A DNA stretch of 64,000 bases from Chryseobacterium gallinarum. GTDB lineage: Bacteria > Bacteroidota > Bacteroidia > Flavobacteriales > Weeksellaceae. Positions 11,179-14,048 of the stretch are shown here, in pieces; the first letter of the stretch is position 1; every line of letters begins with the position of its first letter. The translations under genes were made by a program, and so were the position numbers. The notes under the pieces are model-generated. The model saw nothing but the letters and a program-made list of their open reading frames with translations, did no database searches and was not told where the DNA came from. The DNA is taken from NCBI RefSeq assembly GCF_001021975.1, contig NZ_CP009928.1:620001-684000 (forward strand), written 5' to 3'.

Positions 11179-11802
11179 ATGAAACATTTAATAATTTATG
11201 CTCACCCTAATGAAAGCAGCTTAAATCACCATCTTTTACATCATGTCATCAAAGTCCTTGAATCTGAAAAGCATGAGATTATAGTCCGGGATTTATATCA
11301 GATTCTTTTTGATCCGGTACTATCTCTGGCAGACATGCAGGGCCAATATGCAGGAAAAGTAACGGAAGACGTTGGTATTGAACAGGCTCATATTGCATGG
11401 GCTGATTATGTTACCTTTATTTATCCCATCTGGTGGACCGGGATGCCTGCCATGATGAAAGGATATATTGACCGGGTTTTCAGCTATGGGTTTGCCTACC
11501 GGTATGATCAGGGGATACAAAAAGGTCTTTTAAAAGGAAAAAAAGCAGTTATTATCAATACCCACGGGAAATCCCGGGAAGAGTATGAATCCTCCGGAAT
11601 GGATAAAGCTCTGTCATTAACTTCTGACAAAGGAATCTTCCTATATTCGGGTTTTGAAATTATACAACATTTCTTTTTTGACAAGGCCGATAGAGCAACT
11701 TCTGAAAACCTGGAAATATGGAAAGCGCAAATTCAGAATACCTATGATCAATCCGTTATGAACAAAGTAAGTGGAACCATTTTTAAAAAAGAAATAGTAT
11801 GA
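11179..11802 (+). CDS. Flavodoxin-fold NAD(P)H dehydrogenase (quinone) family protein
   Basis: A 207-residue flavoprotein of the NQO1/KefF/MdaB group. The N-terminus (IIYAHPNESSLNHHLL) binds the FMN/FAD phosphate and the motif FIYPIWWTGMPAMMKGYIDRVFSYGFAYRY is characteristic. Such enzymes carry out two-electron reduction of quinones or other electrophiles in the cytoplasm. The AraC gene directly upstream suggests inducible expression as part of a detoxification response (inference). Confidence 0.87.
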   Translation: MKHLIIYAHPNESSLNHHLLHHVIKVLESEKHEIIVRDLYQILFDPVLSLADMQGQYAGKVTEDVGIEQAHIAWADYVTFIYPIWWTGMPAMMKGYIDRVFSYGFAYRYDQGIQKGLLKGKKAVIINTHGKSREEYESSGMDKALSLTSDKGIFLYSGFEIIQHFFFDKADRATSENLEIWKAQIQNTYDQSVMNKVSGTIFKKEIV

Positions 11803-11892
11803 TACCTTCTTCAGGGATTATTTTATTATTTAAGGATTATATGGCATGGTATTCGCTTTAAAATCGTAAGTAAAATTGTTTTGAACCTTTAT

Positions 11893-11976
11893 TTTAAACC
11901 ATTAAGATTCATAAAAGGTTAAATTGATTAAGTCAAATCACCGGATATGTTCAAATTAATATCTTAATGGTTTAAA
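11893..11976. repeat. Inverted repeat with 16-bp perfect arms
   Basis: TTTAAACCATTAAGAT at 11893-11908 is repeated in reverse complement at 11961-11976, separated by 52 bases. It lies between the flavoprotein gene and the tyrS promoter. It could be a short mobile or dispersed intergenic repeat, or an RNA hairpin; no T-run follows it. Confidence 0.7.
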
Positions 11977-11978
11977 TA

Positions 11979-12010
11979 TTGGATCTCCCCGAAAAAACTT
12001 TTTATATTTG
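11979..12010 (+). promoter_or_regulatory. tyrS: Promoter of the tyrS leader
   Basis: TTG at 11979-11981 and TATATTTG at 12003-12010 are 21 bases apart, a good Bacteroidetes promoter. Transcription should start near 12015, a few bases before the leader peptide ATG at 12019. Confidence 0.7.
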
Positions 12011-12018
12011 CAACTGCA

Positions 12019-12117
12019 ATGAAACATCTCAACAGCATATTGCGTCTTCCATTCTTCAGTGAATATTATACTCCGGGCTATCGTTCGGGAAGACTTTCTA
12101 TATCTGTAATCCATTAA
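12019..12117 (+). CDS. Tyr-rich leader peptide of tyrS (32 residues)
   Basis: A 32-codon frame (MKHLNSILRLPFFSEYYTPGYRSGR and seven more residues) lies between the tyrS promoter and a terminator hairpin. It has two adjacent Tyr codons (12064-12069), a third Tyr codon at 12079 and two Phe codons just before. A ribosome waiting for Tyr-tRNA at these codons would cover or leave segment 1 of the RNA switch described at 12044-12168. This is the layout of a classic translation-coupled attenuator. The predicted 5' leader is only about four bases. Confidence 0.75.
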   Translation: MKHLNSILRLPFFSEYYTPGYRSGRLSISVIH

Positions 12118-12168
12118 AATCATCTAACATTATATATAGAGCCCGAACAGTACATGTCCGGGCTTTTT
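12044..12168 (+). promoter_or_regulatory. Transcription attenuator controlling tyrS
   Basis: Four complementary RNA segments are visible. Segment 1 (GTCTTCC, 12044-12050) pairs with the end of segment 2 (GGAAGAC, 12088-12094). Segment 2 (GTTCGGG, 12083-12089) also pairs with segment 3 (CCCGAAC, 12142-12148), an antiterminator. Segment 3 (AGCCCG, 12140-12145) alternatively pairs with segment 4 (CGGGCT, 12159-12164), which is followed by a T-run, a terminator. Stalling at the Tyr codons 12064-12069 should free segment 2 and allow read-through into tyrS. A second copy of TCCGGGCT at 12072-12079 could also compete for segment 3. Confidence 0.75.
12140..12168 (+). terminator. Terminator hairpin of the tyrS attenuator
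   Basis: AGCCCG pairs with CGGGCT; a one-base mismatch and a further 3 bp (ACA/TGT) extend the stem, and five T follow. It lies 20 bases before the tyrS start codon, inside the message leader. Confidence 0.85.
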
Positions 12169-12187
12169 CATTTTAAAATTATTCATC

Positions 12188-13387
12188 ATGATCCATACAT
12201 TACAAGAAAATGTTGCTATCATCCTGCCGGAAAACGGGCTGGAAGAAAAATTAGCACAGGCCCAAAAAGAAAACAGAAAATTATCCATCAAACTAGGTTT
12301 TGATCCTACTGCACCTGATCTTCATCTGGGTCATGCCGTGGTTCTCAAAAAGCTGAAACAGTTTCAGGACCTTGGCCATACAATCATTATTGTCGTAGGA
12401 AGCTTTACTGCAAGAATCGGTGATCCTACCGGAAAAAATAAAGCAAGAAAACCTTTAAGTGCAGAGGAAGTACATCATAATGCACAGACTTATATCAATC
12501 AGCTTTCCAGGGTGCTTGATATTGAAAGAACAGAAATTGTATTCAATTCCGATTGGCTGGATGCCCTTGACTTTTCAGAAGTTATTCAGCTGCTTTCAAA
12601 AGTGACCGTCGCCCAGCTGATGCATCGTAATGATTTTAATAAAAGATTTACAGAAAATACACCTATTGCCATGCATGAACTGGTATACCCGATTCTCCAG
12701 GGGTTCGATTCTGTGAAAATTGAATGCGATATTGAAATGGGAGGTACAGACCAGCTGTTCAACTGTACGATAGGCAGGCAGCTGCAGGAAATCTATGAAC
12801 GGCCTGCCCAGATCGTGATGTGTATGCCTTTGTTGAAAGGTCTTGACGGAAAAGAAAAAATGAGCAAATCTTTGAACAACATCATCGGGCTTACTGATGA
12901 GCCTAATGAAATGTTTGGTAAAACAATGTCTATTCCGGATGCTCTGATTGAGGAGTTTATAGATCTTACTACAAACTTTTCTGCTGAAGAGAAAAACAGT
13001 TTAAAATCTAAAATAGAGAATGGGGAAAATCCGATGAACATCAAAAAACTGATTGCCAAAAATATCATCAGCCAATACCATGATGATGAATCGGCTGAAA
13101 GTGCAGAACTGTTCTTCAATAATCAGTTTCAGAATAAAAATTTTGATGAGAAAAGTTTTGAACCTGTTTCAATCAGTACACTGAAACATGCTCAACATAC
13201 AATGACTGTTCTTGAACTTTGCCATCAACTGAAGAATGACCTCAGCAAATCAGCTGTCAGAAGACTCATCCAAAGCGGAGGAGTTCAGATCAATTCGGTG
13301 AAAGTCTCAGACCCCGACCAGAAAATTGAACTTTTAAAAGGGATTAAAATAAAACTTGGCAGAAGAAACTTCTTTCAGCTGGTATAA
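12188..13387 (+). CDS. tyrS: Tyrosine--tRNA ligase
   Basis: A 399-residue class I aminoacyl-tRNA synthetase that charges tRNA-Tyr. The HIGH-type motif is HLGH at residues 46-49, within the block IKLGFDPTAPDLHLGHAVVL, and the KMSKS motif is at 224-228. The tyrosine-binding region (GGTDQLFNCTIGRQL) and a C-terminal S4 RNA-binding domain (about 335-395) are present. The gene stands alone behind a leader-peptide attenuator, which would couple its expression to the supply of Tyr-tRNA. A terminator follows the stop codon. Confidence 0.96.
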   Translation: MIHTLQENVAIILPENGLEEKLAQAQKENRKLSIKLGFDPTAPDLHLGHAVVLKKLKQFQDLGHTIIIVVGSFTARIGDPTGKNKARKPLSAEEVHHNAQTYINQLSRVLDIERTEIVFNSDWLDALDFSEVIQLLSKVTVAQLMHRNDFNKRFTENTPIAMHELVYPILQGFDSVKIECDIEMGGTDQLFNCTIGRQLQEIYERPAQIVMCMPLLKGLDGKEKMSKSLNNIIGLTDEPNEMFGKTMSIPDALIEEFIDLTTNFSAEEKNSLKSKIENGENPMNIKKLIAKNIISQYHDDESAESAELFFNNQFQNKNFDEKSFEPVSISTLKHAQHTMTVLELCHQLKNDLSKSAVRRLIQSGGVQINSVKVSDPDQKIELLKGIKIKLGRRNFFQLV

Positions 13388-13396
13388 AAGGATATG

Positions 13397-13432
13397 AAAC
13401 CGGAAGAATACTATTGAGTACTTCCGGTTTTT
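13397..13432 (+). terminator. Terminator of tyrS
   Basis: AAACCGGAAG and CTTCCGGTTT form a 10-bp stem followed by T-rich sequence. Confidence 0.85.
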
Positions 13433-13499
13433 ATTTAAGCTTTCTTTATATGCTTTAGTCCAATTAAATCTATATATTCGTCCCTGTAAACTTAAAATA

Positions 13500-14048
13500 A
13501 TGGCGAAAAATGAAATCCCTAAGCAGATCAACGAAGAGCTATTGGAAGATCCTATGAATATGGAACTGAGCGAGCAGACAATGATCCGGCCCCATCCTGA
13601 GTCTGTGGAAAACACTGTATTCCCTCACCAAACAACGACCAATAACCATGGAGATACTGCGTGGTGGCAATGCAATGAAGCGGGAAAAGAGCAGGTTCAG
13701 ATCAGGCTCAGGGATAAAAAAATCCTTACCTGGAAACCTCCCGTAAGTACGCTGGAGCAGCCAACTTTCCGGGGCTGTCTTTTATACTTTTATGAAAATT
13801 ATCTGATTATAAAATACAAGGATAAGCATTATCAAAGGTTGTTTATTTTTAATATCCACACGTTGCGGAACGAAGAGATCTTGATCGATGCCCTTACCAT
13901 ACGGGTAAAAATAATAGGGAATGAATTATTTCTGGCAGGCTTTTACAGTGATGAAGAGTTGATAAAAATTACAATGCATCCGGATCATATTGAAAGAGAA
14001 AATATTGATGAAACTTATCTTCAGCAAAGAAATATTACATTTGATTAA
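13500..14048 (+). CDS. Hypothetical protein, 182 residues
   Basis: I do not recognise this protein. The N-terminal 60 residues are polar and probably disordered. From about residue 60 on, alternating short hydrophobic strands (RGCLLYFYENYLIIKYKDKHY, RLFIFNIHTLRNEEILI, IRVKIIGNELFLAGFY) suggest a beta-rich or beta-propeller-like fragment. No signal peptide or membrane segment. Another unknown gene follows 49 bases later; co-transcription is possible. Confidence 0.6.
   Translation: MAKNEIPKQINEELLEDPMNMELSEQTMIRPHPESVENTVFPHQTTTNNHGDTAWWQCNEAGKEQVQIRLRDKKILTWKPPVSTLEQPTFRGCLLYFYENYLIIKYKDKHYQRLFIFNIHTLRNEEILIDALTIRVKIIGNELFLAGFYSDEELIKITMHPDHIERENIDETYLQQRNITFD

Follow-up and report, generated by a model that had tools for sequence, protein, structure and literature searches.

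In the 64,000-nucleotide stretch of the Chryseobacterium gallinarum genome analysed here (the window), a gene for a tyrosyl-tRNA synthetase (TyrRS) is preceded by a short open reading frame with two adjacent Tyr codons, which raises the question of whether translation of this leader decides whether the gene is transcribed. An earlier note on this DNA had proposed attenuation of the trp or pheST type and had described a 32-codon frame with tandem Tyr codons and a third Tyr codon (codon 21, 12079-12081); all of these coordinates are exact in the sequence (Table 1). Based on the comparisons described below, the gene, which encodes an accessory enzyme (TyrRS-2, gene tyrS2), is very probably controlled by ribosome-mediated transcription attenuation, which would make the enzyme an inducible backup. 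The logic proposed earlier for tyrS is thus supported by the kept Tyr codons and by compensatory changes in two of the RNA pairings, with its target amended to the second TyrRS.

Table 1. Positions of the leader, its pairing segments and the flanking elements of tyrS2 in the window.
Feature	Position	Strand	Remarks
Bacteroidota-type promoter	11979..12010	+	TTGG at 11979-11982; -7-like box TATATTTG at 12003-12010; spacer 20
Leader ORF	12019..12117	+	32 codons, MKHLNSILRLPFFSEYYTPGYRSGRLSISVIH; nearly leaderless mRNA predicted
Codons 7-13, ILRLPFF, conserved nascent-peptide motif	12037..12057	+	79 synonymous versus 8 nonsynonymous changes
Segment 1	12044..12050	+	GTCTTCC; 5' arm of 1:2, anti-antiterminator, lineage-specific
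Control codons Tyr16-Tyr17	12064..12069	+	kept in 81/81 leaders and 16/17 further leaders
Segment 2	12083..12094	+	12083-12089 pairs with segment 3; 12088-12094 pairs with segment 1
Segment 3	12140..12149	+	common to antiterminator and terminator
Segment 4 and T run of intrinsic terminator	12155..12168	+	
tyrS2, 399-aa tyrosyl-tRNA synthetase	12188..13387	+	TIGR00234 tyrS, 347.8 bits; accessory copy of two
Terminator-like hairpin 3' of tyrS2	13396..13431	+	-16.9 kcal/mol, z -5.64

The nearest solved relatives of the tyrS2 product are 6bqy, 6byq and 1h3e, the last of which we take to be the Thermus enzyme. The window's TyrRS is an accessory second enzyme: another TyrRS is encoded elsewhere in the genome (C1:2969112-2970302), is 29% identical over the match and, as read by eye, has no similar leader in the 300 bases upstream of its gene. 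Among 39 relatives, 20 genomes (the window's own included) carry a full-length TyrRS-2 and G021 shows a partial match; the other TyrRS is also present in all 20, which places TyrRS-2 as a second synthetase beside a housekeeping one. Three genomes of the same genus in this set lack TyrRS-2, and it was found in none of the 15 genomes of other families, one of which (G027) is 76% complete. In wider samples, TyrRS-2 is present in 75 of 246 family genomes (the match in G733 holds a stop codon) and, at E <= 1e-60, in one of 395 class genomes, the window's own. Many genomes from other classes in the phylum sample (148 genomes) have, among the matches listed, an enzyme that is 39-49% identical, and this type of TyrRS is therefore common outside the class. 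A midpoint-rooted FastTree phylogeny of TyrRS-2 places the copy of L062, a record labelled Chryseobacterium tagetis, together with the enzymes of Gelidibacter mesophilus, Arenibacter, Profundicola and Oceanihabitans (support 0.917), and a Telluribacter copy is 70% identical. These two observations suggest that TyrRS-2 has probably spread by horizontal transfer. Because a terminator-like hairpin, absent from the list of a simple terminator scan, sits 3' of tyrS2, the gene is probably transcribed alone, as a single-gene transcript.

For comparison of the leaders, relatives were found via the enzyme alone, with one genome per species, and the best 80 of 181 were used; the resulting set comprises 81 leaders, the window's and 80 others that were fetched through the enzyme and not through the leader. 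A start codon (ATG in 80, GTG in one), an open frame and a stop codon are present in all 81, as expected of a translated short leader. Retention of the Tyr codons in relatives, which the earlier note had named as a check, is complete: codons 16 and 17 both encode Tyr in every leader of the set, so that tandem codons cognate to the downstream gene, as in an attenuator, are general. Codon 16 is TAT in all 81 leaders (12064-12066 in the window), and codon 17 is split between TAT (47 leaders) and TAC (34); the invariance of codon 16 may reflect codon choice, decoding or a constraint on the RNA. The spacing between codon 16 and the TCGG core, which belongs to segment 2, measures 21 nt in 62 leaders, 23 nt in 18 and 20 nt in one. 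Of the Tyr codons proposed to exert control, the tandem pair stands and the third is dropped: codon 21 encodes Tyr in 46 of the 81 leaders, a ribosome halted there would, judging by its footprint, cover segment 2, and this codon is probably irrelevant to control.

A covariance model (R1) built from the alignment of these leaders (A1) matched 82 of the 246 family genomes at E <= 1e-3, 76 of them strongly (E <= 5.8e-11). Each of the 75 family tyrS2 genes, without exception, is directly preceded by a strong leader match in the same orientation, at -3 to 15 nt from the match to the enzyme. The 76th strong leader (L134/L154, G751:C3:248995-249164) is intact and stands before a truncated tyrS2, of which only residues 1-86 occur in the 2.8 kb fetched. 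Twenty leaders were then fetched, three of which were already in A1; the other 17, which were chosen through R1 and are not an unbiased sample of leader sequence, all keep LR[LV]PFF and Tyr16, 16 of them keep the tandem Tyr codons, and the four-pair cores of both 2:3 and 3:4 hold in all 17. Over both sets, the tandem Tyr codons are thus present in 97 of 98 leaders. A natural control-codon variant is seen in L138 (G589:C1:2084020-2084330), where Tyr-Leu-Leu replaces the tandem Tyr and both LRVPFF and pairing 2:3 are kept. At the level of the order, 21 of 346 sampled genomes gave a match to R1; 19 matches were read as true leaders, all from the same genus, and those in G678 and G927 were rejected by eye as other terminators, the latter after another gene. 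Nineteen weak matches in family genomes (E 1e-5 to 1e-3) were also set aside by eye as mostly terminators after other genes, with one before an apparent pheA. A wider family of ILRLPFF leaders within the genome was likewise discarded, as a pattern search gave three places and the two others are not leaders by eye.

The earlier note had further described four RNA segments that form mutually exclusive hairpins. In the window, pairing 1:2 joins GTCTTCC (12044-12050) to GGAAGAC (12088-12094), pairing 2:3 joins GTTCGGG (12083-12089) to CCCGAAC (12142-12148), and pairing 3:4 joins AGCCCG (12140-12145) to CGGGCT (12159-12164), followed by T5. Both the fold of 12015-12174 (z -3.28) and the terminator fold (-14.6 kcal/mol, z -5.45) are above chance; a simple terminator scan of 11500-13700, which requires loops of 3-8, listed none. 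Covariation was scored on A1 against 500 shuffles, with the reservation that related species are not independent. For 2:3, 88.6% of cells are paired versus 85.9% in the shuffles, a value reached by 0 of 500. Six inner pairs are standard in all 81 leaders, one of them as U-A in 62 and C-G in 19; the innermost pair is standard in 61 of 81 and the outermost pair tried in 27 of 81. Two of the five measures for 2:3, namely both-sided change (reached by 349 of 500 shuffles) and pair types (473 of 500), are not above the shuffles. For 3:4, 98.0% of cells are paired (reached by 0 of 500), five pairs have changed on both sides and 13 further pair types occur, values that 0-3 of 500 shuffles reach. An intrinsic terminator with a co-varying stem and a T run therefore lies upstream of the gene, and it is exclusive with the antiterminator, as segment 3 is common to the two and the antiterminator shows the compensatory U-A to C-G exchange.

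Pairing 1:2 is the part of the four-segment scheme that does not extend beyond the close lineage. This protecting hairpin is good in the window and weak as a single helix over the 81 leaders: 85.5% of cells are paired, a value attained in 44 of 500 shuffles, and the covariation score is attained in 19 of 500 and the number of cells changed on both sides in 0 of 500. A single conserved 1:2 helix is accordingly not supported for the whole set, in which it also folds weakly. Segment 2 is nevertheless paired upstream in 80 of 81 leaders before segment 3 is made, with partners that vary by lineage; pairing 1:2 as first described is specific to Chryseobacterium-like leaders, and other lineages pair segment 2 otherwise upstream. 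The window is the sole one of the 81 leaders with an A-C mismatch in the terminator stem (12146 and 12158), and in the antiterminator the same A pairs with U, where 61 of 81 leaders have G-U. This mismatch may shift this strain towards read-through.

The behaviour of these pairings as a switch was modelled by folding the 81 leaders in several scenarios, with a threshold of P>0.5 and a ribosome footprint taken from E. coli toeprints. Before segment 4 has been transcribed, and with the 5' part hidden by a ribosome placed at codon 16, 2:3 passes the threshold in all 81 leaders; in the full free leader, 3:4 does so in 79 and 1:2 in 51. When all of the RNA is present, 3:4 wins in 80 of 81 despite the stalled ribosome and 2:3 passes in none, and antitermination would therefore have to be kinetic, with 2:3 formed before segment 4. 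Other attenuators likewise depend on an antiterminator that forms ahead of segment 4. In leaders that carry no ribosome and still lack segment 4, 2:3 passes in 36 of 81 and 1:2 in 32. Because 2:3 is this frequent in the ribosome-free leaders, the folding suggests that the off state may need a translating ribosome.

A further alternative is a direct interaction of the RNA with tRNA or another ligand, as in a T-box. The Bacillus subtilis tyrS is a T-box gene, and Rfam includes a T-box family. In the window, neither this family nor any other in Rfam was matched at gathering score, and the 15 weak matches near the leader fall far below the gathering scores, which makes such an RNA barely credible here.

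Based on its pattern of substitution, the leader is conserved as a protein ahead of the Tyr codons, where it reads MKxLNxILRLPFF. In codons 7-13, synonymous changes outnumber nonsynonymous ones by 79 to 8 on the TyrRS-2 tree, compared with the 71-75% of nonsynonymous changes expected under neutrality; this bias indicates that the leader ORF is translated. Over codons 2-17, 169 synonymous and 52 nonsynonymous changes were counted; such protein-level conservation before the predicted stall site, strongest in codons 7-13, is what an arrest peptide would show. Pairwise pN/pS over all 81 leaders is 0.13 for codons 2-17 and 0.052 for codons 7-13. Strict residues (synonymous:nonsynonymous) are Leu8 (18:0), Pro11 (15:0), Phe13 (7:0) and Tyr17 (14:0), and Tyr16 is without any change on the tree. 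Comparison across the two leader types (1260 pairs) gives an identity of 96% for residues 7-13 and 82% for residues 2-17, against 74% for TyrRS-2. The pN/pS of the leader versus that of the enzyme is 0.130 versus 0.184 for all 81 and 0.083 versus 0.158 for 60 Chryseobacterium-type leaders; in the other 21, the values of 0.203 and 0.191 amount to about equal constraint, not more. In codons 18-30, pN/pS is 1.28 (pS 0.139, pN 0.178) among 50 Chryseobacterium-type leaders of at least 31 codons. Judged by these ratios, what is preserved in the first half of the ORF is the peptide and, in the second half of Chryseobacterium-type leaders, the RNA.

Protein-level conservation could also mean that the ORF encodes a functional small protein, with the hairpin as a plain terminator between it and tyrS2. 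This is very improbable, given that the constraint lies in the first half, that codons 18-30 have the pN/pS above 1 just described, and that the antiterminator is kept with compensatory change. Conservation of the peptide upstream of the Tyr codons is not required by the trp or phe logic. With a ribosome stalled at the Tyr codons, residues 1-15 would all sit inside the exit tunnel, and a nascent-chain role is for this reason the natural inference: the most likely effect of the conserved peptide would be to slow or stabilise the ribosome at these codons.

The same residues within the tunnel would be expected if the leader were an arrest peptide in the sense of TnaC or SpeFL, in which the ILRLPFF chain senses free tyrosine or a drug directed at the ribosome or at TyrRS and the Tyr codons only mark the stall site. 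The invariant TAT at codon 16, while codon 17 varies between TAT and TAC, fits this alternative, as does L138, which keeps LRVPFF and Tyr16 without Tyr17. We regard it as unlikely, since a pair of Tyr codons ahead of a gene for a Tyr synthetase, as found in nearly every leader, is the classical signature of attenuation and since no ligand is known. Leaders of the TnaC class share with this one a peptide conserved as protein and short enough to act inside the ribosome, and differ from it in that here tandem cognate codons are present and there is no known ligand. Phe12-Phe13 could alternatively be a second set of control codons, so that a shortage of either aromatic amino acid turns on tyrS2. 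Phe13 occurs in 81 of 81 leaders and Phe12 in 78, and a ribosome stalled at the Phe codons would, from its footprint, also free segment 2. This double control leaves the equally strict Leu8, Arg9, Leu10 and Pro11 unexplained, Phe12 is replaced by Tyr in 3 of 81, and it appears decidedly unlikely.

Leaders of other amino-acid operons served as controls for the conservation of the peptide. In the his leaders of six genomes outside the genus (of 29 his loci), no common peptide motif before the His codons was seen by eye. Of 23 his loci from within the genus, 16 fitted the search pattern, with a pN/pS of 0.334 (pS 0.284, pN 0.095) for codons 2-8, a value from a small and nucleotide-conserved sample. 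A scan for Phe-rich ORFs found one in 8 of 30 pheA loci; of the six loci outside the genus, three (L196, L201 and L206) look real and have no common motif before their Phe/Tyr runs, and the other three gave no such ORF. These controls are imperfect, since tyrS2 has probably been transferred, and the time over which its leaders diverged may be shorter than that for the species. Against so short a divergence stand the nearly saturated synonymous sites (pS 0.69) and an enzyme that has diverged to 74%. As separate observations, an ordinary-looking his leader (MKPTFLALHHYHHHLC) stands before hisG in the window's genome (G000:C1:3993675-3994214, L112), and His-rich leaders also occur in six genomes of other families; that the genus carries a his leader of ordinary attenuator form also speaks for attenuation of tyrS2. 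Phe/Tyr-rich leader-like ORFs precede prephenate dehydratase genes in L131 (G600, by eye), L196, L201 and L206 and are likely pheA attenuators.

The promoter was read against the Bacteroidota consensus for the -7 and -33 elements. In 73 of the 81 leaders, a -7-like box, TANNTT[TG][GA], ends 3-10 nt 5' of the start codon of the leader ORF; its strict TANNTTTG form lies at most 12 nt from the start codon in 49, and TTG falls within the -33 zone in 47. A simple promoter scan of 11500-13700, which models sigma-70 and not the Bacteroidota type, gave six promoter-like sites, none of them on the + strand just upstream of the leader. The position of the box makes near-leaderless translation of the leader ORF likely. 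A TAnnTTTG promoter element is named in PMC9723704.

Comparative support for attenuation covers the leader, its Tyr codons, pairings 2:3 and 3:4, the fixed spacing and the linkage to TyrRS-2, from which we infer how the switch would work. RNA polymerase would start a few bases 5' of the leader ATG, with a ribosome trailing it. While Tyr-tRNA is plentiful, this ribosome would pass codons 16-17 and segment 2 would be covered or paired upstream, which would let the 3:4 terminator form and bring transcription to an end near 12168. When Tyr-tRNA is scarce, through a shortage of tyrosine or a block of the other TyrRS, the ribosome would stop at codon 16 or 17, covering segment 1 and freeing segment 2; 2:3 would then form before segment 4 is made, and tyrS2 would be transcribed by read-through. 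A pause caused by the nascent chain possibly assists this attenuation.

With the trp, his and pheST attenuators, the locus shares a leader ORF with tandem cognate codons, an exclusive antiterminator and terminator, and a spacing that would free segment 2 upon stalling. It differs from them in that the target is a tyrosyl-tRNA synthetase gene, a near-leaderless start is predicted, the peptide is conserved as protein and 1:2 is not conserved. Vecchione and Sello reportedly described in 2010 a Streptomyces coelicolor gene, trpRS1, for an auxiliary, antibiotic-resistant TrpRS under ribosome-mediated attenuation. There, as would be the case here, a second aminoacyl-tRNA synthetase gene is switched on via cognate leader codons; here the amino acid is Tyr, not Trp, and the phylum is another. 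Attenuators have also been predicted before trpS2 (also given as trpS) and leuS in Streptomyces (PMC1262725), that is, classical attenuators before synthetase genes as in this locus, for other amino acids and in another phylum. In Flavobacterium psychrophilum, which belongs to the same phylum, strong clues for leader-peptide attenuation, the same class of mechanism, were described before amino-acid operons, together with structured 5' regions of aminoacyl-tRNA synthetase mRNAs (PMC9723704). The conserved elements named in the portion of that paper drawn on here stand before pheA, hisG, ftsY, acsA, alaS and rimP, not before tyrS (PMC9723704). In Bacteroides thetaiotaomicron, long 5' regions contain short ORFs that resemble attenuator leader peptides (PMC7366714). 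In the open-licence literature, no tyrosyl-tRNA synthetase gene of Bacteroidota was found described as controlled by a leader-peptide attenuator, an absence that is weak evidence. The kind of mechanism is known and was suspected in 2021 in flavobacterial amino-acid operons (PMC9723704); the target, an accessory and probably transferred TyrRS, and the protein-level conservation of the leader look new.

The locus offers a clean and experimentally easy case of leader-peptide attenuation for Bacteroidota, a phylum whose ribosomes work without relying on Shine-Dalgarno sequences, and its target is a gene for a tyrosyl-tRNA synthetase. A broader and tentative reading, which we hold to be somewhat short of an even chance, is a hybrid switch that joins a trp-type attenuator to the pausing peptide MKxLNxILRLPFF, such that mRNA pairing and the nascent chain act jointly; the leader and TyrRS-2 would then form one self-regulated cassette that moves between Bacteroidota lineages and comes to the cell's rescue upon starvation or poisoning of the housekeeping TyrRS. 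If the conserved peptide does matter, cognate-codon attenuation and nascent-chain arrest, which are usually treated apart, would be linked, and this link is directly testable. Finally, a patchily distributed second TyrRS with its own switch may point to a natural threat to TyrRS.
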